This document shows positions 12,068-63,775 of a DNA stretch of 64,000 bases, one piece after another; within the stretch, counting starts at the first letter, position 1; the number at the start of each line of letters is the position of its first letter. The notes beneath the pieces were generated by a model. The model made no database searches. It was not told where the DNA came from and saw only the letters and a program-made list of their open reading frames with translations. The DNA is from Lonicera japonica. Its lineage: Eukaryota; Streptophyta; Magnoliopsida; Dipsacales; Caprifoliaceae. Location of the stretch: assembly GCA_021464415.1 (NCBI GenBank), contig CM038469.1, forward strand, positions 32,955,883 through 33,019,882, read 5' to 3'. A program made the translations under genes and the position numbers.

Positions 12068-12179
12068 ATTAAATATGTGATAATATATGTATCATGATCA
12101 CTTTCACCTCACAAAGTCCATTTTCTCTCTAGAACTCAAAGGCTCTCTCTCTCTCTCTAAAAAAGTTTCTCTCTCTAGA

Positions 12180-27741: not shown

Positions 27742-27765
27742 GACCCTCTCGGCCTGGGTTCTTTG
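27742..27765 (-). other. Candidate polypurine tract
   Basis: Immediately inside the left LTR, the minus strand reads GGCCGAGAGGGTC up to the LTR. It is moderately purine-rich and in the right place to prime plus-strand DNA synthesis, but it is not a long pure tract. Confidence 0.4.
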
Positions 27766-27943
27766 TGAAGCAAAAAAACCAGGACGATAACGAGAACACA
27801 ACATTTTGCGGCTCTTGCTTGAATCACAAGTGATATTTTGAAAATAATGCAATGCAAATGATGCCATGCTATGTTGCTTATCTCTCTTCTTGGGATGGAT
27901 GGGCGATGTTTGGAACATATCTTGTGCCTTGCTGTGATGTGTG

Positions 27944-30477: not shown

Positions 30478-30830
30478 GTTTGCCTGTAGAAAAGCCTTTA
30501 GTATGTGCCTGTGAAAAGGGCTTGGGTTGGTGCCTGTAAAAGGGGCTTGGCTTGGATTGGATTGGTGCATATAGAAAGGGCTTTGAATTGGTGCATATGA
30601 AAAGGGCTTTGGATTTGCCTGTATAAAGGGCTTGGATTGGTGCCTGTAAAAAGGGCTTTGGACCGTGCCTGTAAAAAGGCTTTGATTGGTGCCTGTAGAA
30701 ATGGCTTTGATTTTGCTTGTCGAAAGGGCTTGGATTAGTGCCTGTAAAAAGGGCTTGGATTGGTGCCTGTAGAAAGGGCTTGTGAAGTGATTCGCCTCTC
30801 TAGGAGGGCTTATGAATTGACTTGCCTCTC
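30478..30830. repeat. Second tandem array, units of about 24-28 bp
   Basis: Around a dozen variants of GCCTGTAAAAAGGGCTTGGATTGGT. Units differ at several positions (TGCATATAGAAAGGGCTT, GCTTGTCGAAAGGGCTT), so it looks older than the array at 27944-29412. It lies in the same retrotransposon interior. Confidence 0.85.
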
Positions 30831-33365
30831 TGGGAAAACATGTGATCTTATCATGACGATCTGGTCAGTGATGGTGGTGTGACTAATCATCGAGGTATAT
30901 ACCAGGATGTGGTGATAAAGCCTGTCTGGTAGGCCATGGAGCTTAGTGCCTATGTATTCTTAGACTGGTGCGCGGTACACTTGTGCAAGTGTTCATGCGT
31001 ATGCACTATGCAAATGCTTCCCTAAATTTCAAGTATTCACATACTTCTTAAATCACCGCACCATCATTTTAAAAACTTAGTTTTGAAAATGTTTTGAATC
31101 TTGAATTGCCTGATTTATGAAGTATGTTACGCTATTTGAAATTATCTAAGTGTAGATGCATGCATGCAAGACCGACAATTTTCCTAGAATATAGCAACAC
31201 TAAAAAGGAAAATATTGATTTTCGGTCAATCAGTGAGTGAGTGCAAGGTGATATCGGTCATAAGAGAAATGACATGCTTCCGTCTTGGAATTCTGCTAAT
31301 CTTGCGTCATGCTTCCTTCTTGACATGTTTCTCTCTGCTTCTTGATTCTCTATGAGCTTGTTCGAGTCCATGTGCGTTGCTGCTTTTTGCTTTTACCCTC
31401 AGTCTTAGGAGGCTTACATATATGCTTCAGAGGTAGAATTTCTGATTCTAGTGATAGGACGACCATGGGGTTGTGATGGTGTGGGTTAAGCCACCTTTAG
31501 CGCAAATGATAAATGGAGAGGGTGGTCTTAGGGGAGCTGTTCATGTCTTCTTGTCGATACCCTCAGTAGATGTACCCTCGGCACCCTTAGTGTATACGAA
31601 CGATGATGGTGAGGCTAACTTTTAGGGAGCTGTTCTGGTCTTCTTGTCGATACTCTCAGTGTATATACCCTCTACACCCTCAGTGTATGCGAACAATGAT
31701 GGTGAGGCTAATCTTCGAGGAGATATTATGATCTGCATCAAGGACGGCTTGAGGATTATGGTTTTGAAGGGATTGGTTATGTTTAGGGTTCAACCAGGAG
31801 GTTTCGGGATCTTACGGAGGTGTTACAATGATTTTGGCAAGGGCACATGAAGTGGGTGGTTGATGTTGATATGAACTAGGAGGCGAATGTTAGGTGGAGC
31901 TACTGGGTCTCAAGTTTGGTTGCCTTCGGTTGGGTATGGATTTGGATTGAATTGGTTTGGTTCAGCAAGTATTCTGACAGCGATTAGGGCTCAAGATGGG
32001 CTTCGGTGGCCACTTCGTGATCCTTCATGATGGCTACAAACTGGGTCAGATCATGGATTAGATGATAGAGGTGTTCAAGGGTTAAGGTGCCACCTTCGGT
32101 TTATGGGAGAATGGGACCAGGCGGCGAACCCGCTGTATGAGAAGCTTCAATGTAATTACCCTCAGTATTCTCGACCCCGGTTTGATGAAGTAGTAGCTTG
32201 GTGTTACAATGAGGAGGCATGATCGGTGGTGAATCTGATCTCGTGAGTCGTCTAGTTTGAATCTCTAAGAGCCTAGCCAACCAGTGCCAGCAGTAGATAA
32301 TCGGAGTGTGGTAAAGAATTGAGAGAAAGAAATCGGGGATTTGACCAAAAAATCAATATTTTGCCATGGGTTGCATAATTCTCGAAAAACTATGATTTGA
32401 CAGAAAAATAAAATCGAAAATCACTTTTTGGTGATTAGCGAAAACAGACCGACGGCAACAACTTGAGAGCCCCGTGGATAGGTTTAGGGTAGGAATATGA
32501 ATTCCCGAGGTGCCCTTATAACTTTCCGATTTTTGAAATTCTTTTTTAAAAAATTCATTTTGGAAAATGACTCGGTTTTTGGAAAAAAAATTTGGAAAAC
32601 ATTTTTTGAAAATCGGGAAGTTCTCTCCTCTTAGAGTTGCTTTTCATGAAAATAATGACAGGAAAATTCTCACTAACGGGTTTTAGTGAGGGATTTCTAC
32701 GAACTGGGTTGGACAGCCTCCGGTCGTACTTGCCAAACCAAGAGTTGGTATGTATGACAAGGCCTTTTGTTCACTAATCTCACGGCTGACGGTCAAGAAA
32801 ACATGCAGAAATTCACGTGTACTAGGCTGACACATCCTATATGCAAACATGGTTGAAAAGGGTAAAGTTTAAGACTCCCTCCTATTTGGCTAGGTCTTGC
32901 TATATACCCCAAGGGCGAGTACGTGCAAGGACCTTTTGATATACATTCTGGGTACGTGAGTATTCTCGTCACTCGATATACCTCAGTTTGGTACTTGGCC
33001 AAGGAGAGTGGTCCCATGCGCTTTTGGCTAGTGTAGACCCGCAAGTCCACGGTCTAGTCACGACTTTGGTCCCTAGGTTGATAGGGTAAATTCACACTCG
33101 CGATAATGTATGATGATAGTGGGTGCGTGCAAAATAACAATTATGGAGGTATATTATGATAAGCGCATTAGAGTTTGTTCGAGTATTTTCAAATTTTATT
33201 TGTGAAAAGATTTTCCTCAAACAATTATTACAAACAAAAAAGGGAATCAAGGTATCCACCTAAATCGCATCTATGTTATCCTAGAACTAAGGCCAAAAAA
33301 GAAAACATGCAAACAAAAATAATTATCCACGCATATTCTACTCTTGTTTAGAGTCTAATCTTCTT
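30831..33365. other. Retrotransposon interior including the 5' leader region
   Basis: No gag or pol motif was recognised on either strand. A direct repeat of about 96 bp lies at 31530-31720: GGAGCTGTTC.TGTCTTCTTGTCGATA appears twice, each followed by CTCAGTGTA-type blocks and GATGGTGAGGCTAA. In minus orientation the stretch from 33365 down to about 32700 is the leader behind the primer site. Confidence 0.5.
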
Positions 33366-33369
33366 CTCA

Positions 33370-33390
33370 TATCCCCAGCAGAGTCGCCAC
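33370..33390 (-). other. Primer-binding site of the LTR retrotransposon
   Basis: Directly inside the right LTR the minus strand reads GTGGCGACTCTGCTGGGGAT. TGGCGACTC..CTGGGG is the form reported for the tRNA-Arg-type primer site of plant Ogre/Tat elements. It fixes the right LTR as the 5' LTR. Confidence 0.75.
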
Positions 33391-35073
33391 TGTGAGAACC
33401 CGCGTTCTCGACGCTCGGGGTTCCTCGTGGACGGCGATTCCGTTGTTGATTTGAAAATCGATTTTGAAAAGAATAAGAGTCGCCAGTTTGTTTTACTAAA
33501 CAAACAAAAAAGGTTTGTGTAAAAGAGACGTATTTATGGACTAAATATCATCTTATACACAATGTATGCGAAACCAGTTGATTCGAGGGTTCGGGGATTA
33601 AGTTACGAATCGGGAAGGTGTTAGGCACCCAATTCGCCCTTTCGGTCTCTTGAGTAGGATATGCGTGTGTTATAATTTAGCTCTTGCATGCTATTGCTAT
33701 TACTTTACAGCTTTTCGTGCTTACCTTAGAAACAGGGATTTTGGGGTTGGGATGAAAACGATGTGTTTCCTAATTCGCCCATGATTTTGAAAATAAGTGT
33801 GTGTGTGTGTGATTTGAAAAAATAGAGTTTGATAATAATAGATGCAATGAAACAAGTGATTTTGTAAAGTATTGGGCTTTTCGGAAACTGATTCAATGTG
33901 GAATCTTATACTCGATATGATATGAGGTGACTTGACCGATCATATACCATAGTCTATTGATTAAACCGGTATAGATGGCAGTAGTGCTCTCATAATCGAG
34001 TGTTTATCACATACACACCGCAATCTATGAGTTAGATTGGATATACAACGATTATCGATTCCTTTGTATAACAATGCCGCTAATCCGGGCTTTTGGAAAA
34101 GTAAGAAAGTAATAATACTATTTTAGAATTGGATTAGGGTTTATTATACGCCTTTGGTTTTGAAAAACAATTTGAAAAAGAGTTTTGAAAAGCTATCAAG
34201 TGATAGAAATTATGCAGACAAGAATATAAATTATAAAACTGACGAATAAATAAAAGAAGAGAGAGAAAATTATACCTGAGCCTCCTTGGGGGGAGAGAAT
34301 AAGGGTCTCTTGGTGTGTACCACGAAATCCCCTTGATTGTTGATGAAAATAATGAATGGAGGGGGGGGGGTCTATTTATAGTTGTCAAAATACTTGGAGA
34401 GCAAGAAAAGATATTGCAACTAGGACTCTTGGAAATTATCGCGAAGCCTTCCCACCGTTGGATCATCCTGATTTTTGGATACGTGTTGGGAATAGAACTC
34501 TTCTAGATTTGTAAAAATTTCAGGTCGATCAGAATTCGGGAAGGCCAATATTTATTTTAATTTGCTACGAAGGACATTTCGACTAGAATTGCACGATAGA
34601 CAAATTGTTTCTTGATGATCCCATGTTCGACAAAGCTGAATTTTGAATATGTTCTTCCCCACAATAACGCCTATCTTCTTACCAAACTTCAAACCATTTT
34701 AACTTCGAGAAGACCTCCATTTGATCACCCGAATCAAACTCATGATTTTCTGAATTTTCGGAGATTCGACCGTCGGATTGAGTTGATTTTCGAGTATGCT
34801 ACTCCTTTTGATAATGTCTAACAACTCTCAAAGTTTGAGGATGATCCAAAATCCGTAACTCTCCTTTCACAAGTTTCCAGGAGTTTTGACGGTTTTCGAT
34901 TTCGACAATTTTCGATAATTCTGTAACTCCTCATCCGGGGTCCTTTCGGCTTTCTTCTTTGACCTATATCACATGTACATAGTATATGCATCTAGGAATG
35001 CTCGTGCATGCATATGTGCCTATTTCTTTGGAGATCAGGATTCTTGTGGGAGTCGCAAAATGAGGTGTTCACA
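33391..35073 (-). repeat. 5' LTR (short form)
   Basis: 1,683 bp with the same termini as the LTR at 25698. It has one unit where the other LTR has three, and a longer G run (ten against seven near 34361). A minus-strand TATAAATAGA at 34371-34380 is the likely promoter core of the element. Confidence 0.9.
34371..34380 (-). promoter_or_regulatory. TATA box of the retrotransposon 5' LTR
   Basis: TATAAATAGA on the minus strand, followed on that strand by a C run. The same motif is at the matching place in the other LTR (26670-26679) and in the solo LTR at 50565. Confidence 0.6.
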
Positions 35074-43938: not shown

Positions 43939-46019
43939 GACTCACAGCTCTCACTTAATTTCTCACTTCTCTCACTCTTGGGTTCCCATCTCTCTATTTT
44001 ATTTCTCCACCACAACTCCACAAGCTCCTCCGCGACTCCTCCTCCATACCGCCATGGGGCCATCATTCCACGCCGCCATTGCTCCACCTCCACTCCTCCA
44101 TAGCGCCACTGCCACTGTGCTAATCTTTACTTCTCCACCACAAGTTCCTCCACTCCTAGGTAATATTTCTAAATATACTTTTCAAAATTAGGATTAAATT
44201 TTTTCTTGATTAGTTGCATAATATTAGTTGTATTTCTTTATTAATTGCTTAATATTAGTTGTATTTATTTATTAATTGCATAATATTAAGTGTATTTCTT
44301 GAACTATAGATTAATTGTTAAATATTTTTGGATTTAGGTCTAAACCCCTAATTGTTGAATATTAACTTCATTGTTGATTAATTACATAATTTTAATTCTA
44401 TTATTGACTAGTTTGATAATATTAGTTGATTTAGGTCTAAACCCCTAATTGTTGAATAAGAAATACCATAGAATGATATTGTAATTTGTCGTAATTGTTC
44501 GCATTTAGTATTTCAGTAATATAAACTATTATTATTATGAATAATATTATGTTTTTGTTAAAATTTTAAGATTTTAAATATGATTTGGTGTGTTTTGAAT
44601 TTTGCTCCCATTTAGTCGAAATTCTGACTCGAAATTCTGACTCCGCCGCTGAGTACAGTGACGGCTTCAAGTGGCACTCCCAGTACATCAAAAAGAAGGT
44701 TGCTATTTCTGGTTGGTCTCTCCAGTTTTTTCCTTTCTCGATTTTTTTTTCAAATGCATTAATAAAAATTCATATTGCGAAATAACCATGGATTAGCGAT
44801 TGCTATCCTCGGTTTCCGTAATTACCGTACCCTACATCGACAATCGTAGAGCACTGTGGACCAAAATCTACACGTGATTAATGATAAGAGTTTGAGAGTT
44901 ATCAGTGTAATAATGTCGATGAAGTATAAAATTAAATATATTAAAATAATTTTAGATCATTTAAGTTAGCAAATTGAAAACAAAAGATGAGTTTTTTTTT
45001 TTTTAAACACCCAACTGGTCAAAATGTAAGTTAGGGGAAGAAAATGGGCATAAATTATACATTCAATTTACATTGTATGCCTATCTTCTTAATTTCTTAA
45101 TTGCTTTTACATGTAATGTTATAGTCATAATACTTTTACTAGCTAACAAAAAAGGGGTAATGTACTATTTTATAGATTTCGATAAATAGATATTAAATAT
45201 ATGAAAAAAATATTATTATTATTCTTGGATTTGAAGTTGAAGAGGAAGTAGAATCGAGTGGACTGTATATTTAATTTTAGCTCCATGTTAATTAATCAAT
45301 TATTCCCGCTCAAACTCTATATAACCGTTTCAAAAGATCAATGAGGTAGAAGCTCATAAAAATTACGTTAGTGCAATATTTAAAAAAAATTGTCAAAATT
45401 TTTTAATTACAATAGAACTTGTTTTGTAGATATACAATTAAATTTTAAAAATGTAAATTTTATTAATACTAAATCTTTTAGCACATTGGATTCTTTTGAA
45501 AGGGTAATGAGATATTGTCTATAAAAGGAGAGATTTGGGATGATATTAATTTGATGTTCTAATGTAAGAAAAATCATACTTAAAGATCAGAATTAATTAT
45601 ATACTAATTAGTGTCCGGAAAAGTAAATATTGTGGTTAAACTGTGTTCTTATTTTATTTTATTTTATTTTTACGAGAATTTTGGTTAAATGTCCAACATG
45701 TTTGAACGTTTTTTCCACACTATATGCAGTGGTATGGTTTGTTATAATGTTGTACGACCTAGAGAATGAAACGATTAAATAATATAATGAAAACGATCAT
45801 ATCAAAAATAGTTCCCATTAGTACCTAATATTTGATTAAGTTTAACGTGAACAAACTTGCTTATCTTTTATATGTTTCGTTTCCAGGACATTTTTATTTA
45901 GGAAATAGATATATCGATCTCATATATATATATATATATATTATTAAAGAAAGAATGTTAAGAAAATAATAAGTAGCTTAGTGGTCCAGAGACGGTTCAA
46001 TTCTCATTGCATATGTTAA
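43939..46019. other. Intergenic, no gene established
   Basis: A C-rich, leader-like stretch with a good donor (CTAG/GTAATA) at about 43950-44161 could be a lost first exon. It is followed by loose 35-40 bp repeats of TTAATTGCATAATATTAG (44205-44290) and two copies of TTTAGGTCTAAACCCCTAATTGTTGAAT (44333 and 44429). At 44647-44695 a coding-like stretch reads EYSDGFKWHSQYIKKK before a possible donor, but no family was recognised. Otherwise AT-rich. Confidence 0.35.
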
Positions 46020-46054
46020 GGCAGTCGCTATTTGCACACCAAAAATTGCTTGGT
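46020..46054 (+). repeat. Left terminal inverted repeat of the 10-kb MULE
   Basis: Starts GGCAGTCGCTATTTG and ends ATTGCTTGGT. It differs from the right TIR at three positions. Confidence 0.9.
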
Positions 46055-47307
46055 TTTAGACCACTTCTTACAAACACTCCAAAAGGTAGCTTACGTTCTC
46101 TTCTCCACTCTAATGTCACTTCCACCGCTCCCACTATTACAAAAAGTAATTAACTAATTAAATACATTAATTAATAAGTTAATTAAGTTAATAATTAAAT
46201 TAAACAAAAAAAGAGAAAACCCACTCCCCCTTTTCAAAGGAACACGCACAATCTCCTCTCTCATTTTCCCCCCTCACGTTAACCTCTTTCACCCACTCCT
46301 CCTTAGATACTCGACCGTTCTTCATCTTCTCTATTTGTCTTCATCCTAAGCTTCACTAACTATCGGCTTCATCATCTCCCAGCTTCCGTCTTCAACATTA
46401 CGAGCCAAGTAAGTTACACATTTTGACCTAATAATGGTTTCCTTGCATATCCTTACATCTATTTTCCTTGCATATTCAAATATGGGGATGTGAATAATAG
46501 AGTTGTTAATGGTACAAACATGCTTTTTGGTGGAGAGAAGAACCTGATTCCCCCTCCCCCTTTTGATGTGTGAGTGGGTTGCTATGTTTCCTCTTTCCCT
46601 ATAACTGAACGTACCACTTTTGAAATGGGAGAGTAATAGCTAAAACATGCAATTGAACGTACCACTTTTGATAGTAGTTTTTCTCGATAGGGCTTTTCGA
46701 TTCCAAATACACAAAGGAAATTTTCATATAGGGGTTCATTAATCACTTCTATATTAGAAAGCTTTCGTTTTAAATTAGACGGTGTCCGTGCATAAACAAC
46801 TTGTACACGCATTGCATGTGCGACATTACTAGTATACAATTAAAAAGAAGTAGCATACTAATCAAATACTTGCTAGTATCTGAGTAATTTGATCTTTTGC
46901 AAAAATGATAAAAAAAATCAAGATTGATGATTGGAAAAAAAGTACAAGGAAAATAATTAGCCTAAATCAAAGTCAATGCTGCTTTGATTGAAATCAACAC
47001 ACTTTAAAAAAAATTATATCCCATATCTAATTCTTTGTATAGGGCGAAAAATAAAAGATTCAATTTCCTTACATTTCGTAGTCATTTTCTTATTGACAAA
47101 TACATTTCTTCTGTAGTAACGAACTTCGATTTCTCCTAGGAAATGATCCTAATAAGTTGTTAGAATCATAAGCACACATGTTCTTGTAAAGCTTTCACAT
47201 TCATATGTTCTTTTTTCTTAAAACTTACCTTACTTACCTTATTACATACATTAAATTCTTAACGCATGTTAAAATTGGCTAATTGTTATTGTTTTATGTT
47301 ATTAGAT
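46055..47307. other. Leader region between the left TIR and the PMD gene
   Basis: A CT-rich stretch at 46215-46410 ends at a plausible donor (AGCCAAG/TAAGTTAC region), so the PMD gene may have an untranslated first exon here. The TIR itself would then serve as promoter, as in other MULEs. The rest is AT-rich and non-coding. Confidence 0.4.
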
Positions 47308-49850
47308 ATGATGAAGAACAATCCAATGACAGCCTCGGGGAGGCAACGAAAAGTAAAGTTTGTTGCTTCTGCTATAGCTAAGGTACATTGTGGGTACAAA
47401 AGGAGAAATGTTGATCCACCAAATGCATCAGAGTCGGGGATTGCTAAACAAAGTCAATCTCTTCAGGTTGAGAGAGAGGAGCTAGCCGAGCTGTCCCCAG
47501 AATTAGAATAAGCGGTTCCATAACTCGACAAAGGTCGCAGCGAATGTCTAAGCACCAGAGGCGGTGTTTCCCCTCCCGAAGATGAGAGAGGTCAAGTTGA
47601 TAAATCGGTACCTATCAATGAAGGTCCAAGCCCAAGTGTTAATCCTAGCAGTGGCGGCAGTGTTCCCTCTGCCGAAGATGATGGAGGTCCAGTTGATAAA
47701 TTGGTACCTACCAATGAAGGTCCAGGCCCAAGTGTTAGTCCTAGCAGTAGCGGCAGTGTTCCCCATGCCGAAGATGATGGAGGTCTAGTTGATAAATCGA
47801 TACCTACCAATAAAGGTCCAGGCCCAAGTGTTAATCCTAGCAGTGGTGGCGATGTTCCCTATGACGAAGATGATGGGGGTCTAGTTGATAAATCGGTACC
47901 TACTAATAAAGGTCTAGGCCTGAGTCATAGTCGTAGCAATGGCGGCTGTGTTCCCTCGGTTGAAGACGGTGGAGGTCCAGTTGATAAATCGGTACTTACT
48001 AGCTTTGAGAGCCACGTGGCGTATGCAATATGGAACCGCTCGAAGGTATTTCATTGCTATAATTGTTTATTATACCTTCATTTTAATTTCTTTATTGACT
48101 ACTATATTAGGTCCCATTATTTATTTTAATGTAGGACCAACGTGAACAATTGAGCATAATTGGCCATTGGAAAAAGCTAAAGGAATGGAAATTGTCGAAC
48201 AAGGTAGAGGGTGTACAAATGCATGTTAAAGCCTCTGGATTATACAATTTGGTTGAGTACTCGTACCGCTATATTGATTACGTTGCCGTATCGGCCTTCT
48301 TAGAGCGATGGCATCCAGAGACGAATACTTTTCACTTGCCATTTGGGAAAATAACAATAACTTTGGATGATATACGACATATCCTAGAGGTTTGGGTCGA
48401 GGGAAAACCTTTATATGATAAGGACGGAGGAAGAGAGATAGAACCGAAATTGGCAATTACATTGGTGAAAGATTTGTTGGGTAGTCGTGATCGCGATGTA
48501 AGGAGGGAAACGCCAAAATCTTATTCGGACATGCTTGATTAGGTAAAGCGACACTATATAGGTAGAGCTGCTCAAGAATCAACTCCAGAGGAACTTGATC
48601 AATGTGATTAGGAATTCAGTTTTCCCTGACAAAACAAAGAACAAGGTGTTGATCTATTTCCTTAGTTGTTTGAAGGATTTATTGAGGGTTTCTGAAAATG
48701 GATGGGGTATGGTGATACTTGCACATTTGTATCGTTGGTTAGGTATGGCATCCAAAGCGAATATGATGCAGATTTCTGGTTGCTTGACTCTGCTTGTGGT
48801 ACATTACTTCTTCTTATTTTTATACATTATTTCTTTTTATTTATGCACATTACTTCTTCTTACTTATTTTTATTACGCATTTAGGTTTGGATTGTTGACC
48901 ACTTTTCGGATTATTCACGAGTGGTTTATAATATGGAGTACACGGAGCTTATGCCACGTATGTGCAAGTGGAAGTCACAACAATATAGTGGAGATACACA
49001 CATGGCCGTAATAAGGTTGAGAGAGAAGCTTGATAATTTAACTGAGAAAGATGTAATTCGTATTCAATTAACTATGTTACATATTTTATATTTTTTAATC
49101 GTATAGTTATAATTAATGGTTTGGAATTCTGGTAATAGGCGATATGGGATCATTATAAGGACCACAGAGATGCACATCCCTTGCATGGGTTTCGTACTAT
49201 TGCAGCTTACTGCTATGCTACGACATTGTCGAAGCATATCACCTCGACCGTGTACTTAGGCAGTTTGGTCACGTCCAAACTATTTCGACCATGCCGATGA
49301 TCAAATAAAAAAAGTCAATACCAGAAAATACCATTAAGGGATACAAGGTGGAATATAACCTTAGTGGGTGGCACCAAAAGAATTAGAGGAATCATTTGCT
49401 TAACATCTCGTCTTAGTTTGTACCTGCGCGCTATCCTTGGAAATGTGCTCTTGATTATATGGATTGTTTTTTTAGGATTAGCCATCCATATGTTCAACCC
49501 CCATTGCTGAGAATTATCCCCAGAGGACACGGGATGTGTATGACAAAGAATTGACTAAGTTGGTAAGGACATCCCTTTAATTACTTGTTTTCATTTAAAA
49601 CTTTTAAGATTTCTAATCATCAATGATCATAATTGCCCTATGCAGCAAATAGAGTTGACAAAGCACGAGCATTGCTAGAGAGTGCAATTTTGGATGGCCA
49701 ATCACACGATGTCGTAGAAGCCGTGAAAGAGGCATACAATATTTTTAGGGATGCAAGAAAAACTGAATCAGAGCAAGACAATGTAAAAGAGAATATCCCG
49801 AGTCGGAGACTAAATGAAAGAAGAGACATGACAATGCCCCGATAGAGATG
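47308..49850 (+). pseudogene. Plant mobile domain (PMD, MAIN-like) gene of the 10-kb MULE
   Basis: After an acceptor (TTATTAG), MMKNNPMTASGRQRKVKF begins a basic, then acidic N-terminal region with four to five 32-residue repeats (47590-47990). An intron at 48046-48134 joins NRSK to DQREQL in phase. The next exon is a PMD: WKLSNKVEG, SGLYNLVEY, FLERWHPETNTFHLPFGKIT, TLDDI. Later pieces read FPDKTKNKV, WGMVILAHLYRWLGMASKA, WIVDHFSDYS, HPLHGFRTIAAY, DRVLRQFGHVQTI and HPYVQPP, in the usual PMD order. Stops at 47509, 47521, 48540 and beyond, plus frame changes, show decay. PMD proteins MAIN and MAIL1 act in the plant nucleus in silencing and meristem upkeep. PMDs are also known in MULEs and Ty3-gypsy elements, where their role is uncertain. 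Confidence 0.8.
47590..47990 (+). repeat. 96-bp (32-residue) coding tandem repeat in the PMD gene
   Basis: Four full units and a part. The consensus starts VDKSVPTNKGPGPSVNPS and ends SGGSVPxAEDDGG. All units keep the same frame, and most differences between them are substitutions, so the repeat expanded while the frame was open. The region is acidic, Pro/Ser/Gly-rich and probably disordered. Confidence 0.9.
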
Positions 49851-50237
49851 TAAGTACAACAACAAAAGCCCCACCAGCACGCAGATCCGCTAGAAATGCC
49901 AAAGCGCCACCGCAAAAGAAAAGAAAATAGTTATTTTTGTGTAAATATAGTTGCGTTTGGCTTAATATAGTTATGTTTGGTACTTCTTTTTTGTTAATGT
50001 ATTTGCTTTGGATTTGGTACATTTGTTAAGCTTAATGTGTTTGCTTTGACTTAATGTATTTTTTTGTATTCTTTTTTGTTAATGTATTACACTATCTAAG
50101 TTTCATTTTTGGATAATGAAAAATACTTCCATGCATGTTTTGATCATTTATTTATTGTTAATTTATCTTAATTATTGCAAAAAAGAAGAAGAAGAGTAAT
50201 TTACCTATATTACTGATATTAGAAAAAGAATTTGTCG
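49851..50237. other. 3' flank of the PMD gene
   Basis: Contains TTAATGTATTTGCTTTG-type phrases repeated three times (49995-50100), probably 3' UTR. No other gene seen. Confidence 0.4.
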
Positions 50238-51418
50238 ACCCCTGTGAACACCTCAATCCATGACTCTCGTGTGAACCTAATCAAGCATTCCGCATCAAGT
50301 CTTAAGTCATCATGCATACAGGAGACCATTAGGAAAAGCCTTGTTTTTCGAGCGCGTCAAGAATCTACCACAGCCATGTTGCCACTTCGCTAGCCGACCG
50401 CACGCCCCCCAACCGCACGGTTGGCGCATATCCTAGCCACACGGTTGGCTCATAACCGTACGGTTGGCTTTGAGCCGCATGCTCGAGCCGCACGCCTTAG
50501 CCGCAGCCCTACCTAGCCGTACGGCTGGCTCCTAGCTGCGCGGCTACCCAAGCCGTTTTTCTCCTATAAATAGGACCCTTGGGCTCTCATTTGAGGATGA
50601 ACACTCACTAGTGTTTTTTAGTAAGGTGAAGTTCTGTCAAAATCATTAGAGAGTCTTCTTTTAGAGAATTTCTAGTGAGAAAAAAGGCTAGTGAGAGAAA
50701 GCTTTAGAGAGAGAAAGTTCTAGAGAGAAAAGGAGGCAAGCAAGGCAATCAAGGCAAGGTTCTTATTTCTTCTTCAGGCGCATCAGGTACGTCTTTCTGT
50801 CATTCTACTAATTTCAATACTGCATTTAAATTCATTTTTAATACAGAAAATTAGATAACTTGCAAAGAAGTCCAACTGCTTTCAAAACAAGTTCTTTCTA
50901 AATTTTACAAGAAAACTAAAACCTGTTTTCACACGTTTTCAAAACAAAAATACAAAAAACAATTTCCAAAAGAAAGGAACTACGAGACTCTGATTTCATT
51001 CTACGAATGAATACATAGGCGCTCGCAAAGCTCGAGTCTGATTTCAAAATACTGTTTTAAAACTGAATTTATCTGGAAAGGACTATTCTGAAAACTATTC
51101 GAACTACTTGTAAGATATCTAAAATATGAATTAGATACATGATCCATTAAGAGACTGAAATGGCGAATTGGGTGCCTAACACCTTCCCAATTCGTAATGT
51201 AGTTCCCGAACCCTAACAAAGTAAATTTTCAAAATAAATCTCTGGTTTCAAACGTATGAAATATAATTCGTTTTTGAATTGTCCTTCGTACGATCTTTTG
51301 TTTGTTTTCTTGTAAAACAAACTGGCAACTCTATAAAACACGTTTTCCTTCAAATAAAGAAAAAACCGAGAACGGGGACTCTTCCTCTCGGGTCGCGGGT
51401 CCGGATTCTCATAACCCC
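50238..51418 (+). mobile_element. Solo LTR related to the 25.7-35.1 kb retrotransposon
   Basis: The LTR is 50243-51413 (1,171 bp), flanked by ACCCC on both sides (50238-50242, 51414-51418). It starts TGTGAACACC, the same start as the full element's LTR in its own orientation. The part at 51160-51215 (GGCGAATTGGGTGCCTAACA then CCTTCCCAATTCG) corresponds closely to 25890-25950 read in reverse, and AAACAAACTGGCAACT matches near 25795. It ends GGATTCTCATA, so the last bases have changed from the usual CA. TATAAATAG at 50565 is a likely promoter core. The U3 region holds a GC-rich repeat block. No internal region or partner LTR is present, implying LTR-LTR recombination. Confidence 0.82.
50395..50555 (+). 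repeat. GC-rich short repeats in the solo LTR
   Basis: Variants of GCCGCACGGTTGGC and AGCCGTACGGCTGGC recur about every 20-30 bp. The block is strikingly GC-rich against the AT-rich window and lies just upstream of the TATA box at 50565, so it may be an enhancer-like U3 repeat. Confidence 0.75.
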
Positions 51419-52022
51419 ATGTCTTAAAGTGATAATGCTCGTTGGACATTGGGTGATTATGGGGCAACCAAAAAGCAGATGTCCAGCGAGTAAGGTGTAC
51501 TTTCTCGCTAGACATGGGGTGGGTGAGGTGCACCTAGAATGAATAAAGCCTACTAAAAAATTTACTAAGCTTGACATCTAACGAGTATATTACTCGCTTG
51601 ACATTAGGTGACTATGGACTAATAAAAATACGGATGTCCAGCGAGTAAGGTGTAGTTTCTCGCTAGACATAAGGTGGCTGGGGTGCACCCAGAATGAATA
51701 AAGCCTACTAAAAAATTTACTAAGCTTGACATATAACGAGAATATTACTCGCTTGACATTGGGTAATTATGGGTCAACTAGAAGACGAATATCCAGCGAG
51801 TAAGGTTTACTTTCTCGCTATACATGGGATGGCTGGGGTGCACCTAGAATGAATAAAGCCTACTGAAAAATTTAGTAAGCTTGACATCTAACGAGTATAT
51901 TACTCGCTAAACATTGGGTGACAATGGGGCAACCAGAAGACGGATGTCCAGCGAGTAAGTCTTACTTGCTCACTAGACATAGGGTGGCTGGGGTGCACCT
52001 AGAATGAATAAAGCCTACTAGA
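51419..52022 (+). repeat. 155-bp tandem array between the two MULE genes
   Basis: Four units with a constant 155-bp period; AAGCCTACT marks their ends at 51546, 51701, 51856 and 52011. Each unit contains ACGAGTATATTACTCGCT and CCAGCGAGTAAGGT..ACTTTCTCGCTAGACAT, which are themselves partly self-complementary around CGAGTA. The solo LTR abuts the array start exactly at its target duplication. No coding sense. Confidence 0.93.
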
Positions 52023-52397
52023 GCTTACTTTCTCTTCCGTTATCTGGTGAGTGAGGCTTATATTTTATTTTAAGTGGAAAGTAAATCAAACACACTCACG
52101 ACAATAGTAAATTATGTATCTTTAAAAGTAACTATATTATAAGGACCCTTAACATATTTGGATCAAAGTGTTGTCATTTATACAAAAAAAAAGTATAAAA
52201 TACTTTCTATGCGACAAAAATTTACATATTCGCATCAATAAATACTATATTATAAGGATCCTTCACATACGAGGGTAAAAGTGTTATCATTCATACAAAA
52301 AACGAAAGGTATCAAACACTTTCTATGCGACAAAAAGTTACATATTCGCATAAAAAAAGAACAAAAAGGGTTAGCTAACAATAGACTTGCCAATCAC

Positions 52398-55320
52398 CTA
52401 ATTAACTATGATTGGGAAATCGATTGTTGTAAGAATATGTCTCGGTGCTATTTCAAAAAATTGGTCAATTCTATCCACATAATGATCCATCCAAGTGCTT
52501 ACTTCCTCTGTACAAAGAGCACGCCACTTTGAAGCAACGGGAGGAAGCGGTGCACCATCCTTCAACTGAACTTTAATAAAGTGACAACCATAGACAAATG
52601 CTATAGAAAGCAACCGATGTACATTTCCTTCCGACGGATGCATTGAGTGTTGTAAAAAGGTTAAACATTGTTATTTCGAAAGAAAGACCACTATACAATT
52701 GAATGTCAATGCTATAAGGTAACCCATGTCGGGCATAACCATCCAAAACTTCGGGCCACACGGGGTGCTAAAACACTCAAGTGTATATTTATAATCAATA
52801 TAAAACCATAGGCCCCATACTTTGTCATATTTTCCTTTGAACCTCTCAAGATCATCTATCAACTCTTTTCTAACCAATAACCGCCCACCACTATCGAAAA
52901 ATTGCAAATGTCCTATAATACACCGATACCCGCAATTGTCATCATCATCAACATCTTCTATATTGGTGATGAAAGAAAGCATGAATTCAAGAATGTAAGA
53001 GAGATAATCTTTGAATTCCTTCTTCGTCAATTTATGCGCATACTTCATCTTCTTAGCCTTTGAAACTTATGTTAATTTATCGGGAATAAATGCTACCAAC
53101 TGTTGCTCTTCTTGGAACTTGGCATACTCGAACCCTGATGGATCTCGCTTCGTCGACAACTCATGCTTCCTCTCCTTTCTCTCTTTTTGACTCAACGATT
53201 TTTTGCTACCACGAGGTTTTGGCTCTTTAAGCGATGTGATCATTTTTGTTGCAAGCTTTTTCAATTTTCTCAAAAGCACTTTCTTTTCACCAATTGATTG
53301 ATTAAATAATTTCTTAAACAAAATCATTTTCGGTGCCTCATCAACATCTTTCAAAATACTAGTATTTTGCAATATCGTGAGCTGTCCCCAATGTTGATCA
53401 ACGGCCTCAAGCGAGATAGGGTGATTTTCACGACATACTGTAATAATTCATGCGCGCACGGTAGCCCATAAATAGTACGAAAGACGTGATCACATGCAGA
53501 TGGATCTATACCAATATTAATTAACTTATCATGCTCCTTCGTTATCAAGTCTAATGCAAAATATGAAAGGTTTCCCCTTACGTGTCGGAATAGCATTCCA
53601 TAGTGATTTCCTTTTACATATCCAAGTCTTTTCTCAAACACAGCCTTAATTTCAATAAATTAAAGGCATAACATATTGTCCGTCACCGCGAACACTATAG
53701 TAAAAGATCCTTGGCTTAGCTCAAAATAGTTTTTTAACTTAGAATGTGATCCTTCTACTTGATTTGTAGTGTTATTGCCACGGTGTTTCATATGATTCGT
53801 CCATGCTAGTACAAATGACTCTCTATGTTGGAACCACGTACGTGTAAGGTAATCAACACACTTAGGAAAGTGCTCCCAATCTTTCCTGAATCATTCCCAT
53901 TCTTCAAAGAACTATGTTTATGATGTTTCCTAAGTCATATTACTCTAATCTTGAATGAACTTCTTCTAAACAGGGCCACTCTTAAAAGATGATTTGCAAT
54001 ATTGTTCCACATTTCTTAAAATATGGAATGTACACAGCATGTGTTGGGCTTCGGGGAAAATAATGTGGATAGCTTTAATGACTGCACACTCTCTATCCGT
54101 AATAAACACGCTTAGTTTGTTGTGTGCAGCAAATGACAACTTTAACTTTGAAAGGGTCCATTTGTAATTATCTTCCAATTCTCTATACAAAAAGCAATAC
54201 GCAATTGAGAACGTCCTAGCAGTTGATGTCACTCCCACCTTAGCAAACAATGACACTTTATAGCGATTTGTCTTGTAAGTGCAATTAAGAAACACCACGT
54301 AAGGGAAACATTTGGCTATAAAAATACTTTCAGGATGGCCCCAAAAGAGGTCTAATACCTAATTTGTTATTTCGTCCTTCCTATGCCAATACACATAATG
54401 CTTTTCGACTAAAACCTTCATTAATTGTTGCATGGCTCTTCTTCCTTCCATTTCATGAGTTCTCAAATTGGCCTTTGCATTGTAAATTGTTTTCATTATG
54501 GAGGCGTTCTCCTTGTTACAACGCTTAAGTGCATTTAAAATGTCTTTTGGTTTTATTCCAGTAAGGGTCATGTCCACGATAAATTTCCTCTCTTCTTGGC
54601 TTCATCTTCTGGCATAGGGATGACCAACCAAACTATGAGGAAACTCATGGTTATGAACACCACAGCGCACTTCTAGCCTCCACTTATCTCTATTAATATT
54701 CACACAGCGGAGTGAGAATGGACAGTTGCATTTTTTTTATAACACTTTCTTTCCTCTTTGCAATATTCTTAGTATGAGTTATCCCTCCTCTTTCGCACCC
54801 TAAATATAGCCTTGGAGACCTCCTCACTGCACCACCCTTTTGGTCGAATTTCATAGTTATGATTATAGTTATGATTATAGTTCTTATCCAAACTATAGCA
54901 AGAAGAAAATACCTAGACAAATAAACATTTTACACAATAAATTAAAATAACATATTATATTACTTAAGAAAATCATTTATGGCACTGTAGTCAAGTTATA
55001 AAGTAAACTTACTTCGTTTGTTAGAAAGACTAGAATAACATCAATTTTTATAATTTTATCATTATCCGAATTATGGTCACCAATGGAAATGAGGAGGGGC
55101 AAGTCACCGACGTCGGAATTATGGTCACCAACATCAGCCTTATGTTCACCTCAATAAATTGCATCTAGACACATTATATCCTCTAAAGATCGGTCGTCCC
55201 CACCATCGACACTTACTTCACCACTATTATAAGGCTCTAATTCAAGGCAATCGGGATTCAGAGGTTTTGCTCCAAATTGGCCAAAGTCAATTTCTTCAAG
55301 GCAATATACATCCTGAAATA
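52398..55320 (-). pseudogene. FAR1/MULE transposase with C-terminal OTU domain
   Basis: Minus strand, in order. An acidic first exon (55315-55015; VYCLEEIDFGQFGAKPL..) ends at GTAAGT. A FAR1/WRKY-GCM1-type DNA-binding region follows with YLGCERGG and WRLEVRCGVHNHEFPHSLVG. Then come the GIKPKDIL helix and the transposase core: VFLNCTYKTNRY (family has D where N stands), VFITDRECAV (D kept), HMLCTFHILRNV (C-x2-H kept) and TNQVEGSHSKLK (E kept). A degenerate SWIM-like CDHVFRTIYGLPCAHEL, a basic linker with SGFEY, and an OTU domain follow: DDDDNCGYRCI (nucleophile Cys), MPDMGYLIA, GCHFIKVQLKDGAPLPP (catalytic His region). MULE transposases bind TIRs and cut them in the nucleus; OTU proteins are mostly deubiquitinases. 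Several stops and frame shifts break it. The D-to-N change alone should abolish cutting. Confidence 0.82.
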
Positions 55321-55962
55321 ATGGAATTACTTGAAGATTAGTTTATTAACCAATTATAACTCTTGTAATACCATATTACCAAACAATTTTTTCAGTTAAT
55401 GAACACCCAGAAACAAATTAGTCATGATTGCTACATGTTTGGTGATTATACCTATCATACTCGCTTATCATGAAGCGAGTTACAGGCTATGACTGTCTAC
55501 TAATGTCTAACAAGTGGACATGACAGCAAAATTTTCTTATTTTACTACATTTCCAACGAATGAACTACTATAATTCATTTCATGTCAAGAGACAGTCACC
55601 TTATTTCCAATTAGGTATACTTTATGGTGTTCTCACTATTATTCATGGGTGTAGGGTTTCTTGCTTGCTTCCACAAAGTGTTGCTTTAGTGCTTGATTTT
55701 CTTCAATCAATGGAAGTAAATTTCAATTAAGAAGAGGAGAAGGAAAAAGGAGTCCAGCAATATTGGCGTGGTGGAGCGTTTGGAGGGGAAATCAAATGTG
55801 GGATGGTATTTAATTCCTTTTAAATTTGACAGAGTAATTATAAGTTAATATAATATGTAATTATGAAGGTTAATTTTAATTCTAGGTAAATAACCATTGG
55901 GTAAAAATATAAATGAATGGTGTGCAAATAGACATTTAAAGCATTTTTAATATTGGAGTATT
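55321..55962. other. Leader between the transposase gene and the right TIR
   Basis: No gene beyond the transposase start region. A short copy of the TIR phrase (GTGTGCAAATAGAC, near 55919) lies about 50 bp inside the right TIR and may be a transposase-binding repeat. Confidence 0.45.
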
Positions 55963-55997
55963 ACCAAGTAATTTTTGGTGTGCTAATAGTGACTGCC
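55963..55997 (-). repeat. Right terminal inverted repeat of the 10-kb MULE
   Basis: Read on the minus strand it starts GGCAGTCACTATTAG and ends ATTACTTGGT; 32 of 35 positions match the left TIR. Confidence 0.9.
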
Positions 55998-56079
55998 TAT
56001 GTTAAACCTAAAATTTTTTTGAGTTAAAAGTCTACAAAGATAAAATTGGAAAAATGGTTTCAAAAACTCGAAATGGCTT

Positions 56080-56241
56080 CCTTTTGATATATATATATAT
56101 ATGTTACATATTCATATATATGTATATTTTACGTACACATATTGTATATACATAATATGTAACATATACATATATATGTTACATATACATATATATATAT
56201 ATACATATATATGTTACATATATATATATATACATAAACAT
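56080..56241. repeat. TA-rich simple repeat with ATATGTTACATAT palindromes
   Basis: Mixed (TA)n with four occurrences of TATATGTTACATAT or close variants. A similar (TA)n tract follows the foldback MITE at 56649-56665, so the MITE sits inside simple repeat sequence, as does its relative at 42828. Confidence 0.8.
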
Positions 56242-56647
56242 ACAATGCATTTCAAATAAGGATCACTATTTGAGGACCATTATTACGAACCGACCCATTT
56301 GGCATGCTTCCCGAAATAATTTTTTTATGAAATTTTGTGGGGATATTCTCCATCGTATGTACAACATCTCCACTAAAATTTCTTGAAAAAATCTACCGAA
56401 AAGTGGGTTAACTAAAGAATTAAAAAATATTAGATTTTTTTATATTTATTGCTAGACTAATATTTTTCAATGTTATAGTTAACCCACTTCCCAGTTGATT
56501 TTTTTTGATAAAATTTGGTGTAGATGTTCTACACATGATGAAGAACGTCCCCACCAAATTTCATCAAAAAATTCCAGCAAAAAACATGCCAAATTACCTG
56601 ATCCGAAATAATAGTCCTTAAATAGTGACCCTTACTTGAAAATTTTC
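56242..56647. mobile_element. Double-foldback MITE, copy 2 (diverged)
   Basis: Shares the block order of the element at 42828-43230: GATCACTATTTGAGGACCATTATT at one end facing its complement at the other, TTTGGCATGCTTCCCG, AAATTTTGTGGGGATATTCT facing CATCTCCACTAAAATTT, AGTGGGTTAACTA and a central AAAAATATT pairing. Differences are frequent, so it inserted earlier or has decayed more. It lies about 240 bp beyond the right end of the 10-kb MULE. Confidence 0.8.
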
Positions 56648-56665
56648 ATATATATATATATATAC

Positions 56666-57102
56666 ACATGGTATTGTTCGCGACATGATTAAACAAACTT
56701 TGTCTAATAATTTCACAAATAAAGTATGAATAATTTATGACGTCACTAGACAAGTAAACTATTAAATTTAGTGAGCAAGTCTTTAATATATTTTTTTTTG
56801 CCTGCACTGATATACTACTCTATGTAGTCAATGTTTTGGGTATAGTTTTTTTTCGTTCACTTCATTTATCTTGAGTTTAGAGCAAGTTTAAGCTGATATG
56901 CGCTCCGTACTTGATTCTCACGTGCTTATTAGCAGAGTTGGCTTAGATTTCCCGCCAAAATAACTCACTCCAACAAATGCAAACTAATTAACTAATTACT
57001 TACCACCGCCAAACTATCAACATCAAATCACTTATCTTTCTCTGCGAAACTATCAACATCAACATCACCCCTCGCACTCTCTCTATATCTCTCTCTTCCA
57101 AA
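56666..57102. other. Intergenic, no gene seen
   Basis: AT-rich. AAACTATCAACATCAA occurs twice (57011 and 57047). Possibly the 5' flank of the open frame that follows. Confidence 0.35.
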
Positions 57103-57420
57103 ATGGGTAATAATATTAGAATTCGACTAACACCTGCACAGCGAAAGCAGCAGGAACGACTGAGCACGCCGTCAGAGGTAAGGGTTACTAATCAATCGGT
57201 ACCACCGGTAAGAGTGGTGATCCGTTATTCATCGCTGGAATCAAAAAGTGCCATCATTTATAGTGAGAGGTCTTCCCGAGTGCATGATGCACGTTCTCAT
57301 CAACGTACATCACATGTCAGGAAAAAGAGTCATGAAATCACTCGAAGGATCGGTCGAATAAATCTATTTATCACCATAAATGGAATGTATCTAATCTCTT
57401 TTTCTTTCTCGCTTGCTTGA
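57103..57420 (+). CDS. Unrecognised open frame (105 residues)
   Basis: Starts MGNNIRIRLTPAQRKQQERL after a CT-rich leader (57075-57101). Residues 1-90 are basic, Ser/Arg-rich and look coding in composition; the last 15 are hydrophobic and may be intron read-through. No family was recognised. It lies 2.3 kb upstream of the second MULE transposase and could be an exon of that unit or of an unrelated gene. Confidence 0.3.
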   Translation: MGNNIRIRLTPAQRKQQERLSTPSEVRVTNQSVPPVRVVIRYSSLESKSAIIYSERSSRVHDARSHQRTSHVRKKSHEITRRIGRINLFITINGMYLISFSFSLA

Positions 57421-57512
57421 GTTTTTTGTCTTACTAGGGTAGTTTTGAAACTTAATTAAGTGAATGGGGTACTTTTCATCTTATTGGGGGGAAATAGGGT
57501 AGTCCATAAAAA

Positions 57513-59758: not shown

Positions 59759-62360
59759 ATGGGAAGCATACATTTTTATTTTCTGCTTTGTTCGGGTGAC
59801 AATATAATTAATGGTGACCAAGGTTGGACCTACAATAAGCCACATGAAAGTGGCATTATCCTGGACCAAAGCAATACTAACTCAGAATTACTAGAGAAAG
59901 TGTTTTTTGCTATGGATGTTGACTGCACGCAGTCCATGTTGAAAATGACTTGTAGATGTCCATTTTTGGTATCTATAACTACTTGGAATTACTTTCATCA
60001 TGAAATTGTAGATGATGGAAGCATGGAATTTGCAATGATAACTATTTGCAATGTTCACGTTAATGCAATATATTTGTATATTGAAAAAGTGGATTTCAAT
60101 TACAATGTGTATCCAATTGGCAAAATTTTGCTATTGTCCAGACCATGTAGATCACCACCGTCAACACAATGTACCCCTTTGTCCATTGATCCATTATAGC
60201 AATAGGAGTTTAATGACCATATCAATGAAGGTTACCCTATATCTATTTTTGGTTCTAGTTCGTGACATTTAAAAAGCCACCGTTTTGGTGGCACTAGCAA
60301 GAAAGGCCACAAATCACGTAAGTCCATACACGAATCTATGTTTGGGGGCGAAGGTGGTATAGATTATGCATCAGATGCAGAATACCGTACTAGAGAGGAC
60401 TTGGACTCTGAATTTGATGTAATGCACAATTTAAGTCATAGTGAAGGTGATGAAGAGGAAGAACCGTTGAGATTAGGCAAGTTAATGATGATGTGCCGTC
60501 ATTCTACACCCGATTTAATGTTATAAGTATGGATGAGGAGGTCTTAATAGAAGATTAGAATATGGATGAAAATGAACTTAGAAATGGGCTAATTTTTTAG
60601 ACGAAAGCGAACTTGAAAACAGCCGTTAAATCGTTCACAATCAAGAATGCAAATGAATATATTGTTGATGAATCTAAGGCAGATATATGGGTAATTAGGT
60701 GCAAATTACATGATAAATGATGCAAATGGCGTATTCGTGCACGTAAGAGGAAGAAAAAACACGGGCAATTTGAAATAACCAAATACGAGGGTCCCCACAC
60801 ATGTAGATTTGATTATTTGAAACTAAGCCACAAACATCTTGACTGCGATTTCATTGCAAGGAAAATAATGCACATAGTGGAGGAGGTTGATCCTGCCCTT
60901 AAAATCGCCGTTATTGTTATATTCATTAAAGATCAATATGGCTATAAGATATCTTATTGGAAAGCATGGAATGCTAAGGTGAATGCAATAAAGACTTTAT
61001 TTGGTAATTGAAAATAATCTTATGCTATAATGCCAAGATATTTGGCAGCTATTACGTATCACAATGAAGGGACGATCCATGAGTTGAAAAGCAACCAATG
61101 TGATAAGAATTATCGTGTTTTTAATAAGAACTTTTGGGCCTTTAGCGATTCAATTGAAAGTCTTATGCTTTGCCGTCCTATTATTAATGTTGACGTGACA
61201 CATCTTCGGGAAAAATATAATGAAAAGTTATCTAATGCAATGGCAATGAATGCAAATGAGGGTATATTTTTCCGCTTGCGTTCGGATATGAAGAGAAAGA
61301 AAGTTACGAAACTTGGAATTACTTTCTAAGCGAGTTTGGCTTTATGTTGTCAAGGGGCGAGAAGGAATGTGCTTGCTTTTTTATCGTCACAGGAGTATAT
61401 TAGCAGTAATCAATTTCGATGCTCAATTTAAAGAGCCAAAATTATATCATCGCTTTTGCATGCACCACATTCGTAGTAACTTCACAAGCAAATATAAACC
61501 AGTCGAATGTTAAGGCTACTAATATGGAAGGCTGATATTTCTTACCAGTTGTCCAAATTCGAATACTATATGAAAAGGATAAAATAGTATAATGAACTTC
61601 AATCAATGAAGGGAAAAAATCGTGGAAATGTCTAACCGAGATTCCACTCTAAAAGCAGACCTTTATTTACGATGGAGGGCATCGATATGGGGTTAACTCG
61701 ACAAACATTTTAGAAGTACTCAATGGGATTTTACTATGAGCGAGATATTTGCCTTTCACCGCATCCGTAAAGCTTATATTTCACCGTCTTGTTAATTACT
61801 TTTGTCAACGAAGACATGAAGACGTAGAGAAGCATAACAATTCAGAGTTAGAACATACCTTGATCATTGCGATTAGATTTTTGGATCTTCAAAAGAATGT
61901 CCAAAAATACTGTGTCTTTAGGCATAATATATCCGAGGGATTGGCGGTAGTCACATCAGCTAAGGGTAAAGTTAAGAATGTCAACATTAAGGAATGCACG
62001 TGCAGCTGCGGAAGGTAGTCTATTAATAAGTATCCTTGCTCTCATGTCATGGCGGTATGTGCTGATTTAAAGCTGGAGCCAAAGTATTTGATTGATCATG
62101 CTTTATCTCTCAAGGATTATATGGTTACTTATGCTTCTGCGATGAATCCTGCTTTGCCAATGGAGTACTGGAATGCATTAATCCCATCACCCCCAACTGT
62201 CTTGATCCCTAATCCTGTTATGTTACGAGAGAAGGGTCATTCGTCAAGATGTATTCGTAACGAGATGGATTTAAGCGATCATCAGCGAACAAACCATTGC
62301 GGGATATGTGGGGAAGCCGGACATGATCGACGCAGTTGTGGTCGGAATAAGAAAAATTGA
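59759..62360 (+). pseudogene. MuDR-type transposase (PB1-like, MuDR, MULE, SWIM, zinc knuckle)
   Basis: From ATG 59759, MGSIHFYFLLCSGDNI begins a PB1-like N-terminal domain. An acidic linker (60338-60526) follows. At 60600-60810 is the MuDR DNA-binding domain: AVKSFTIKNANEY, WVIRCKLHDK, CKWRIRARKRKK, FEITKYEGPHTC. The MULE core has PRYLAAITYHNEG, VDVTHLREKYNEKL (first Asp kept), then FYRHRSILAVI where the family reads SDRH, so the second Asp is lost. YHRFCMHHIRSNF follows. ECTCSCGR then YPCSHVMAVC is the SWIM finger, with a stop between. It ends with a CCHC knuckle, CGICGEAGHDRRSC. In-frame stops (60598, 60718, 61009, 62017) and frame shifts make it non-functional. It lies 320 bp upstream of a PMD gene on the same strand. 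Confidence 0.85.
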
Positions 62361-62678
62361 AGTTTTATTTTCGCATTTTCATTTTGAAATTATTAAGACG
62401 ATATGTAATCTAGCTATTAATGATGAATTATTACGTAGTGTTTGTTTCGTATCTTATGATATAATGTAATATTTGAGTTTAATTATTATCTTTTTCACGT
62501 AATGTTGTATCATGACTTTTAATATTATAATGGTATTAGCGTAACTTTATATACTTTGTTTATGACGGCCTATATTAAAATGCTTAATTATATTACTATA
62601 CTATAAGTTTATTGACACGATAATTTGTTTATGATTAAGCATATATTGTATATATTTATTTATTACAGGTTTTTATAG

Positions 62679-63775
62679 ATGGATCCAGGTCCTAAGGACC
62701 ATTGTGTATTATATCTACAGGATCAGCATAGATCATCTTCTATTTGGGAAGGGCAGGACCCTGGTTTATTAGAGCCACGACGAAACGATACAGTTTTTAA
62801 GCACTAAGATGGACGGTCGATTATCTTACCCGATAAAGTGCAGCGTTTACTATTACGAGCAAGATTTTACGAACTCTATCGGGTTGGATATATAAAGTAT
62901 GATCACGCTTTGCTCACCGCGTTAGTAGAGCGATGGCGACAAGAGACACATACTTTCCATCTCCCGATTGGAGAGTGTACTATCACATTACAGGATGTCG
63001 CCATACTACTAGGATTGCTAATCGATGGGCATGTTATTACCACACCACCATTGGTTGGAGATCCTCCTGACATTTGTTTGCGTGTACTAGGTGTCCGGCC
63101 TGACACTGTTTCTCTGAAAAAATCAAAATTAAAACTTTCATGGTTAGCTAATACATTTCGGAAGGTACCTGAAGATGGGGCAGATGACGGTACCGTAGAG
63201 CGATATGCCTGGACATGGATTCTTCACTCGCTCAGGGGATGTATTTTGGGCGATAAATCGACTACATTTGTTAGGGTTTCATTACTCTTGCTTGTCGAAG
63301 ATTTACATGTGGCGAGACAATACAGTTGGGGGAATGCAGCACTTACTGTTTTGTATAGAGAGATGTGCCGAGTATCACGTAAAAAATAAAAGCAGATTGC
63401 GGGTCCTTTTATACTATTACAAGTCTACATTGAATTCATTAAATTACATTAAAATATTGATTTATAACATAACTTATATTTTTTTGTCATTTTTTCTAGC
63501 TTTGGGGTTAAGAGCGAATGTAGCATATTCGATCGCGATTGGTTGGCACACCAATTATAGCTAAAGAAATTGTTAATGAGATTGATGGAGCACCTTATGG
63601 AGCCAGGTATGAAATATATAACAAGTATCTTACAATATACAACCTTTTGCATATACTTAATATAATCTTGATTTCGTATAGGTGGTGAACGAGATTGTTA
63701 CTTAATCGCACCCTGACACACGTATTGGGGCACTATAGAGACCAGTTAGACTGTATGCAGGCGGAGTAGGTATTA
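62679..63775 (+). pseudogene. PMD (MAIN-like) gene of the second MULE unit
   Basis: MDPGPKDHCVLYLQDQHRSS starts after a short gap from the transposase and is the usual start of MAIN-like PMD proteins. ALVERWRQETHTFHLPIGE and CTITLQDVAILLGLLIDG carry the PMD core. WTWILHSLRGCILGDKS, YSWGNAALTVLYREMC and KQIAGPFILLQ follow in order. Two later exons are suggested: about 63500-63606 (IVNEIDGAPYGAR) and 63682-63770 (THVLGHYRDQLDCMQAE). Stops at 62805 and 63387 interrupt it. It is clearly a different PMD subtype from the one at 47308, and lies in tandem with, rather than facing, its transposase. The end of the element is beyond the window. Confidence 0.8.

Follow-up and report, generated by a model that had tools for sequence, protein, structure and literature searches.

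A decayed plant Mutator-like element with a transposase and a plant mobile domain gene converging between its terminal inverted repeats

The window, that is, the whole 64-kb stretch of DNA analysed, contains at 46012-56005 (both target duplications included) a frame bounded by terminal inverted repeats (TIRs), within which two genes face each other (Table 1). The forward strand encodes a plant mobile domain (PMD) protein on the left, and the opposite strand encodes on the right the transposase of a Mutator-like element (MULE), which together with its C-terminal tail runs from 55318 to 52401 and converges with the PMD gene. Splice signals are present in both genes. Both also carry stops and frame changes, and an LTR of Gypsy type lies between them together with two tandem repeats. 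The PMD genes, the intron-bearing MULE genes and the Gypsy-type LTR element of the window point to DNA of a plant. An earlier note on this DNA had described the 35-bp TIRs (32/35), the 8-bp target duplication, the convergent orientation and the identities of both genes, and these descriptions agree with the results given below; it was silent on the decay of the genes, on the LTR between them and on a second MULE-PMD pair in the same window.

Table 1. Features of the convergent element and of the related sequences in the window, in order of position.
Feature	Position	Strand	Basis
Gypsy-type LTR element	25698-34544	-	LTR pair
Left target-site duplication TATGTTAA, 8 bp	46012-46019	n/a	Exact copy at right end
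Left TIR	46020-46062	+	36/43 against right arm
PMD gene, broken; ends approximate	about 47308-49930	+	ORFs, frames, splice signals, Pfam
96-bp (32-codon) tandem repeat, 4.6 copies, N-terminal exon of PMD gene	47560-47999	+	Repeat search
Three putative introns of PMD gene	48046-48134, 48799-48884, 49053-49138	+	GT..AG signals
Plant mobile domain PF10536	48237-49398	+	Pfam on joined exons, E 1.3e-46
Probable solo LTR (50243-51413) of Gypsy-type element, ACCCC on both sides, between genes	50238-51418	+	
155-bp tandem repeat, 3.8 copies, between MULE genes	51432-52020	n/a	Repeat search
113-bp tandem repeat, 2 copies, between MULE genes	52131-52358	n/a	Repeat search
C-terminal tail with OTU-like motif; one in-frame TAA; candidate domain	52401-53066	-	Motifs
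Body of transposase, broken: region of weak FAR1/AFT type, MULE domain, remnant resembling SWIM; one putative intron	53411-55318	-	
MULE transposase domain PF10551	54011-54298	-	Pfam, E 6.5e-22
Right TIR	55955-55997	-	Pairs with left arm
Right target-site duplication TATGTTAA	55998-56005	n/a	Exact copy of left 8-mer
Second MULE: broken MuDR-type transposase	60601-62360	+	PF03108 E 2.7e-8, SWIM E 4.7e-9, terminal CCHC knuckle
Second PMD gene, same strand, downstream of second transposase (pair 60601-63422)	from 62679	+	Pfam E 3.8e-41

The TIRs start at 46020 on the left and at 55997 on the right and agree at 32 of the first 35 positions, after which the match fades; longer alignments give the 36/43 of Table 1 over 43 nt, or inverted-repeat arms of 45 nt at 84%. 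Chance origin of the TIRs is rejected, as the real pair (32/36, beside an exact 8-bp duplication) lies beyond every one of 200 Markov-1 shuffles of the 12.5-kb stretch 45000-57500, in which the best pair reached at most 23/36 with a median of 20. Under a looser definition, 14 nt with up to 2 mismatches and a duplication of 7-11 bp, the pair is the sole match in the real stretch, and 30 shuffles gave 7 matches in total. A scan of the whole window for 20 nt with up to 4 mismatches and a duplication of 8-11 bp returned 6 pairs, against 2 in total over 10 shuffles; the MULE TIR pair has 2 mismatches, and the other five have 4 and lie in A+T-rich or simple sequence. The element hence shows both TIRs and a target duplication within the range of about 8-11 bp that marks MULEs. 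A search of the 64-kb window for a third TIR copy, allowing 10 mismatches in 30, found none; its sole other match had 10.

Like the transposase gene, the PMD gene is enclosed by the TIRs, and it is read from the other strand. When its exons are linked, with X at the breaks, the PF10536 profile aligns from position 1 to 326 of 347 with residues 47-377 of a 411-residue reading, and the separate fragments match at E 6e-15 and 4e-11. That reading is interrupted by 4 stops and changes frame twice; 2 further stops fall in the N-terminal exon. The 32-residue repeat at the N-terminus of the protein is rich in G, P, S and D. On the 5′ side of the gene, at 46162-47254, a 9-bp direct repeat, ATACATTAA, flanks A+T-rich inverted repeats of 20 nt with 4 mismatches; the stretch is perhaps a small nested element, or the arrangement is due to chance.

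The transposase is identified by the MULE domain, which scores 78.3 bits with PF10551 against a cut-off of 27.6. Near its N-terminus the FAR1 model PF03101 (E 0.0024; 19.0 bits, cut-off 28.1) and the AFT model (E 0.0027) both match below their cut-offs, and Pfam reports no MuDR DNA-binding model for this region. By this weak match, the transposase would lean to the FAR1/Jittery-like type. Further down, a relaxed C-x-H...C-x-H stretch at 53494 forms a SWIM-like remnant, and the strict C-x-C...C-x-H of SWIM is absent from the reading. At least 2 frame changes and 7 stops interrupt the body and the tail (555 + 349 residues). We excluded 53858-53947 from this reading, where the same frame meets another 5 stops. 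At the position that we take, from the motif D-x-T-Y, to be that of the first catalytic Asp, the transposase reads Asn (codon AAT). An intact transposase frame with the catalytic D-D-E, as expected of an autonomous active element, is not found in this copy. With both genes interrupted by stops and shifted frames, and with Asn at the first catalytic Asp position, this copy is very probably inactive.

The hallmark of OTU cysteine proteases is a D-x-N-C motif with a catalytic His downstream. The transposase tail contains the motif DDNCGYR (Cys codon 52932-52934); a candidate His, that of CHFIKV (codon 52581-52583), lies 117 residues beyond the Cys, and the reading is interrupted by one stop. DDNCGYR is the sole match to D[GDSEN]NC[GFLAY][FYLW], a pattern written with the motif in view, among the 127,996 six-frame residues of the 64-kb window. 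The motif and the candidate His speak for the earlier claim that an OTU domain is built into the transposase, but the profile does not confirm it: PF02338 is not matched in the tail, a single decayed sequence, at E≤1, nor, at E≤10, once that sequence is read through its stop or cut down to a core. A search of solved structures with the tail gave one unrelated match (E 1.2), and two structures predicted from the single sequence had mean pLDDT values of 49.9 and 34.6, too poor for fold comparison. These results would also suit a tail of another or degenerate kind that shares a short motif with OTU proteases, a reading to which we give nearly, though not quite, an even chance. The missing OTU match is weak evidence for it, because it comes from one tail sequence only, and a decayed one, and the uniqueness of the motif in the window and the placement of the candidate His speak against it. 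We are slightly inclined to regard the tail as an OTU-type cysteine protease.

The LTR between the MULE genes was identified by the match, at 89%, of 51149-51214 to 25893-25958 and to 33586-33651, places within the two LTRs of the Gypsy-type element found elsewhere in the window; these LTRs (25698-26844 and 33391-34544) are 97% identical over 1155 nt. The sequence TGGCGACTCTGCTGGGGA, which we take to resemble the primer site of Tat-type elements, follows the LTR of that element that ends at 33391. Tandem repeats of roughly 80 bp occur inside the same element at about 27932-29411. In the MULE, ACCCC flanks the LTR directly at 50238-50242 and 51414-51418, with the PMD gene outside, and because of this duplication on both sides we read it as a solo LTR. 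The reading is probable and short of certain: the ACCCC duplication guided the placing of the left end, the start being unaligned with any other LTR; a good alignment with the other LTRs is confined to the 3′ part; and the sequence ends in TA, against CA in those.

One question is whether the PMD gene belongs to the MULE or entered it separately. The earlier note had named as an argument against the pairing a PMD block with boundaries and a target duplication of its own. Our search for an insertion that carries the PMD gene without the transposase returned 7 candidates, all of them weak: in each the duplication measures 5 bp and 8/10 positions match, so that none has a longer duplication or fewer than 2 mismatches in 10. 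Their number exceeded that of every one of 30 simple shuffles (0-6), and was reached by 22 of 200 block-wise shuffles (300-bp blocks; mean 3.8). The corresponding search for a block with the transposase only gave 2 candidates, against 0-6 in shuffles. Within the MULE nothing convincingly marks off the PMD gene as an insertion of its own. Since no second element copy with these TIRs is seen in the 64-kb window, we infer, and do not observe, that the PMD gene is an inherited part of the element, already aboard when it transposed.

Two other origins of the PMD gene have to be weighed. It could be a fragment of a host gene captured by this one element through transduplication, which never formed part of a family. 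MULEs do capture host sequence, and two independent captures of PMD-C by MULEs have been proposed (PMC5418596). Nearly the whole domain is present here, however, together with a long N-terminal exon and introns, and its orientation is the one published for many MULEs (PMC6446971), and we consider such a capture unlikely. Still less likely, in our estimate, is that a Gypsy retroelement sits nested in the MULE, with the PMD gene as its 3′ part and the LTR at 50.2-51.4 kb as its 3′ LTR. Ikeda et al. 2017, who trace the first description of the PMD to a rice MULE, assign the PMD-A clades to Gypsy elements (PMC5418596), and here an LTR with a duplication-guided left end, an unaligned start and a TA end does lie downstream of the PMD gene, with a purine-rich run at 50179-50196 between them. 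That run is nevertheless 46 bp from the start of the LTR, and ACCCC directly flanks the LTR as placed, where a 3′ LTR would have internal sequence of its element at the left. Moreover, gag-pol is lacking upstream of the PMD gene, as no ORF of at least 100 aa occurs in 46.0-47.3 kb, and the PMD gene has splice signals.

Another MULE-PMD pair occupies the window from about 60.6 kb onward, its two genes arranged head to tail. Over 200 residues, the PMDs of the two pairs are 28% identical (E 4e-16). Between the transposases no alignment came out below E 2, a comparison in which some middle parts of the second are probably read in the wrong frame. The ends of the second pair were not found before the window stops at 64000, and a search of solved structures with its PMD gave no match at E≤1. 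Two such pairs in one 64-kb window, with PMDs at this level of identity, fit a PMD that recurs as a passenger of MULEs rather than an accident. In viral_contigs no relatives were confirmed among the pattern matches to the MULE-domain ORF (0 of 10), the PMD ORF of the second pair (0/1) or one exon of the PMD gene of the convergent element (0/10). Elsewhere in the window, an open frame on the forward strand at 12084-12806 ends in NIPNQYR and has, as a fragment, no Pfam match at E≤0.1; the end resembles, we presume, that of MEI2-like RNA-binding proteins, and the frame is perhaps a host gene.

Taking together that (i) the PMD (E 1.3e-46) and the MULE domain (E 6.5e-22) both lie inside the TIRs and (ii) they do so on opposite strands, we consider it probable, with good confidence, that the locus is a decayed, formerly autonomous plant Mutator-like element with a transposase and a PMD gene. 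Three observations count against this reading: the lack of a second copy with these TIRs in the 64-kb window; the lean to FAR1/Jittery together with the 8-bp duplication, the plant Jittery row of the published survey being without PMD (PMC6446971); and the excess of PMD-block candidates over each of the 30 simple shuffles, though 22 of the 200 block-wise ones reached the same number. While the element was active, each TIR would have driven one inward gene, if, as we presume, the TIRs served as promoters. From the right, the transposase would have moved the element and left the 8-bp duplications. From the left would have come the PMD protein, which would most likely have countered host silencing or titrated a MAIN/MAIL-type pathway, as published authors suggest. 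The host PMD proteins MAIN and MAIL1 serve silencing, and PMDs are also found in transposons (PMC5418596, PMC8616336); an anti-silencing use of the transposon PMD was suggested in PMC5418596 and repeated in PMC8616336, and PMC9289625 and PMC7156037 are further papers of relevance to PMD in Gypsy elements and to MAIN/MAIL1. The transposase tail, judged by its motif, may have acted as an OTU-type cysteine protease. After the insertion, a Gypsy-type element would have landed between the genes and left only a solo LTR behind, and stops and frame changes would have accumulated in the two genes. With both genes broken, this copy is unlikely to move itself and affords no direct test of function, also for the two potential host-interaction modules that the earlier note proposed. 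It is conceivable, although we hold this only tentatively and as rather doubtful, that the copy represents a plant MULE lineage whose FAR1/Jittery-like transposase ends in an OTU protease and which has a separate convergent PMD gene, giving it two candidate counter-silencing modules.

Maize MuDR carries two convergent genes inside its TIRs, and the present element is like it in this respect. The earlier description of the PMD gene as occupying a mudrB-like slot is a fair one, and to our knowledge mudrB is not itself a PMD gene. The same note knew of no named family with this layout, a point that is superseded by the survey of 1,631 MULEs by Dupeyron et al. 2019 (PMC6446971). The convergent MULE-PMD layout is already known, because Table 1 of that survey gives antisense PMD for most of the MUDR group and, beyond it, PMD as "often antisense" in MUDRAVI2, "sometimes antisense" in MDR and MULE-Monocots, and "PMD (antisens)" in MULE-Solanaceae_1; the transposase groups with PMD are 42 and 45-50. 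With MUDR and MUDRAVI2 (groups 50 and 49) the present element shares the pairing of a MULE transposase with an antisense PMD gene, and its TIR of about 43 bp falls within the MUDR range of 30-320 bp (PMC6446971). It differs from them in its duplication of 8 bp, compared with 9-10 bp in MUDR and 9 bp or none indicated in MUDRAVI2, whose TIRs, moreover, measure 80-290 bp (PMC6446971), and in its weakly FAR1/AFT-type N-terminus without a reported MuDR DNA-binding model. With the plant Jittery sub-group (group 36) it has the 8-bp duplication in common; that row of the table lists TIRs of 39-292 bp, a FAR1-type N-terminus, which here falls below the Pfam cut-off, and a C-terminal SWIM or CCHC, and it differs from the present element in listing neither PMD nor OTU (PMC6446971). 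A plant-containing Hop sub-group has FAR1 in half its members and is given without PMD in the same survey.

A PMD on a MULE is likewise found in several grasses and Amborella (PMC5418596), where PMD-C is fused to the transposase, whereas here it forms a separate convergent gene. As to the tail, Ginger1 transposases are described with OTU and Ulp1 tails, and Mutator elements with Ulp1 (PMC2836005), grapevine MULE families are labelled with Ulp1-like regions in either orientation (PMC2528002), and the OTU entry in Table 1 of the survey ("Ovarian Tumour Gene") belongs to the cnidarian MuDR-6_HM only (PMC6446971); the candidate OTU tail would resemble Ginger1, the Mutator elements with Ulp1 and MuDR-6_HM in having a protease-type domain joined to the transposase. 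If real, a PMD gene and an OTU domain with a FAR1/Jittery-like transposase would make a combination absent from the table of the survey (PMC6446971), and, should intact relatives have PMD and OTU together, both anti-silencing ideas would become testable in one element.
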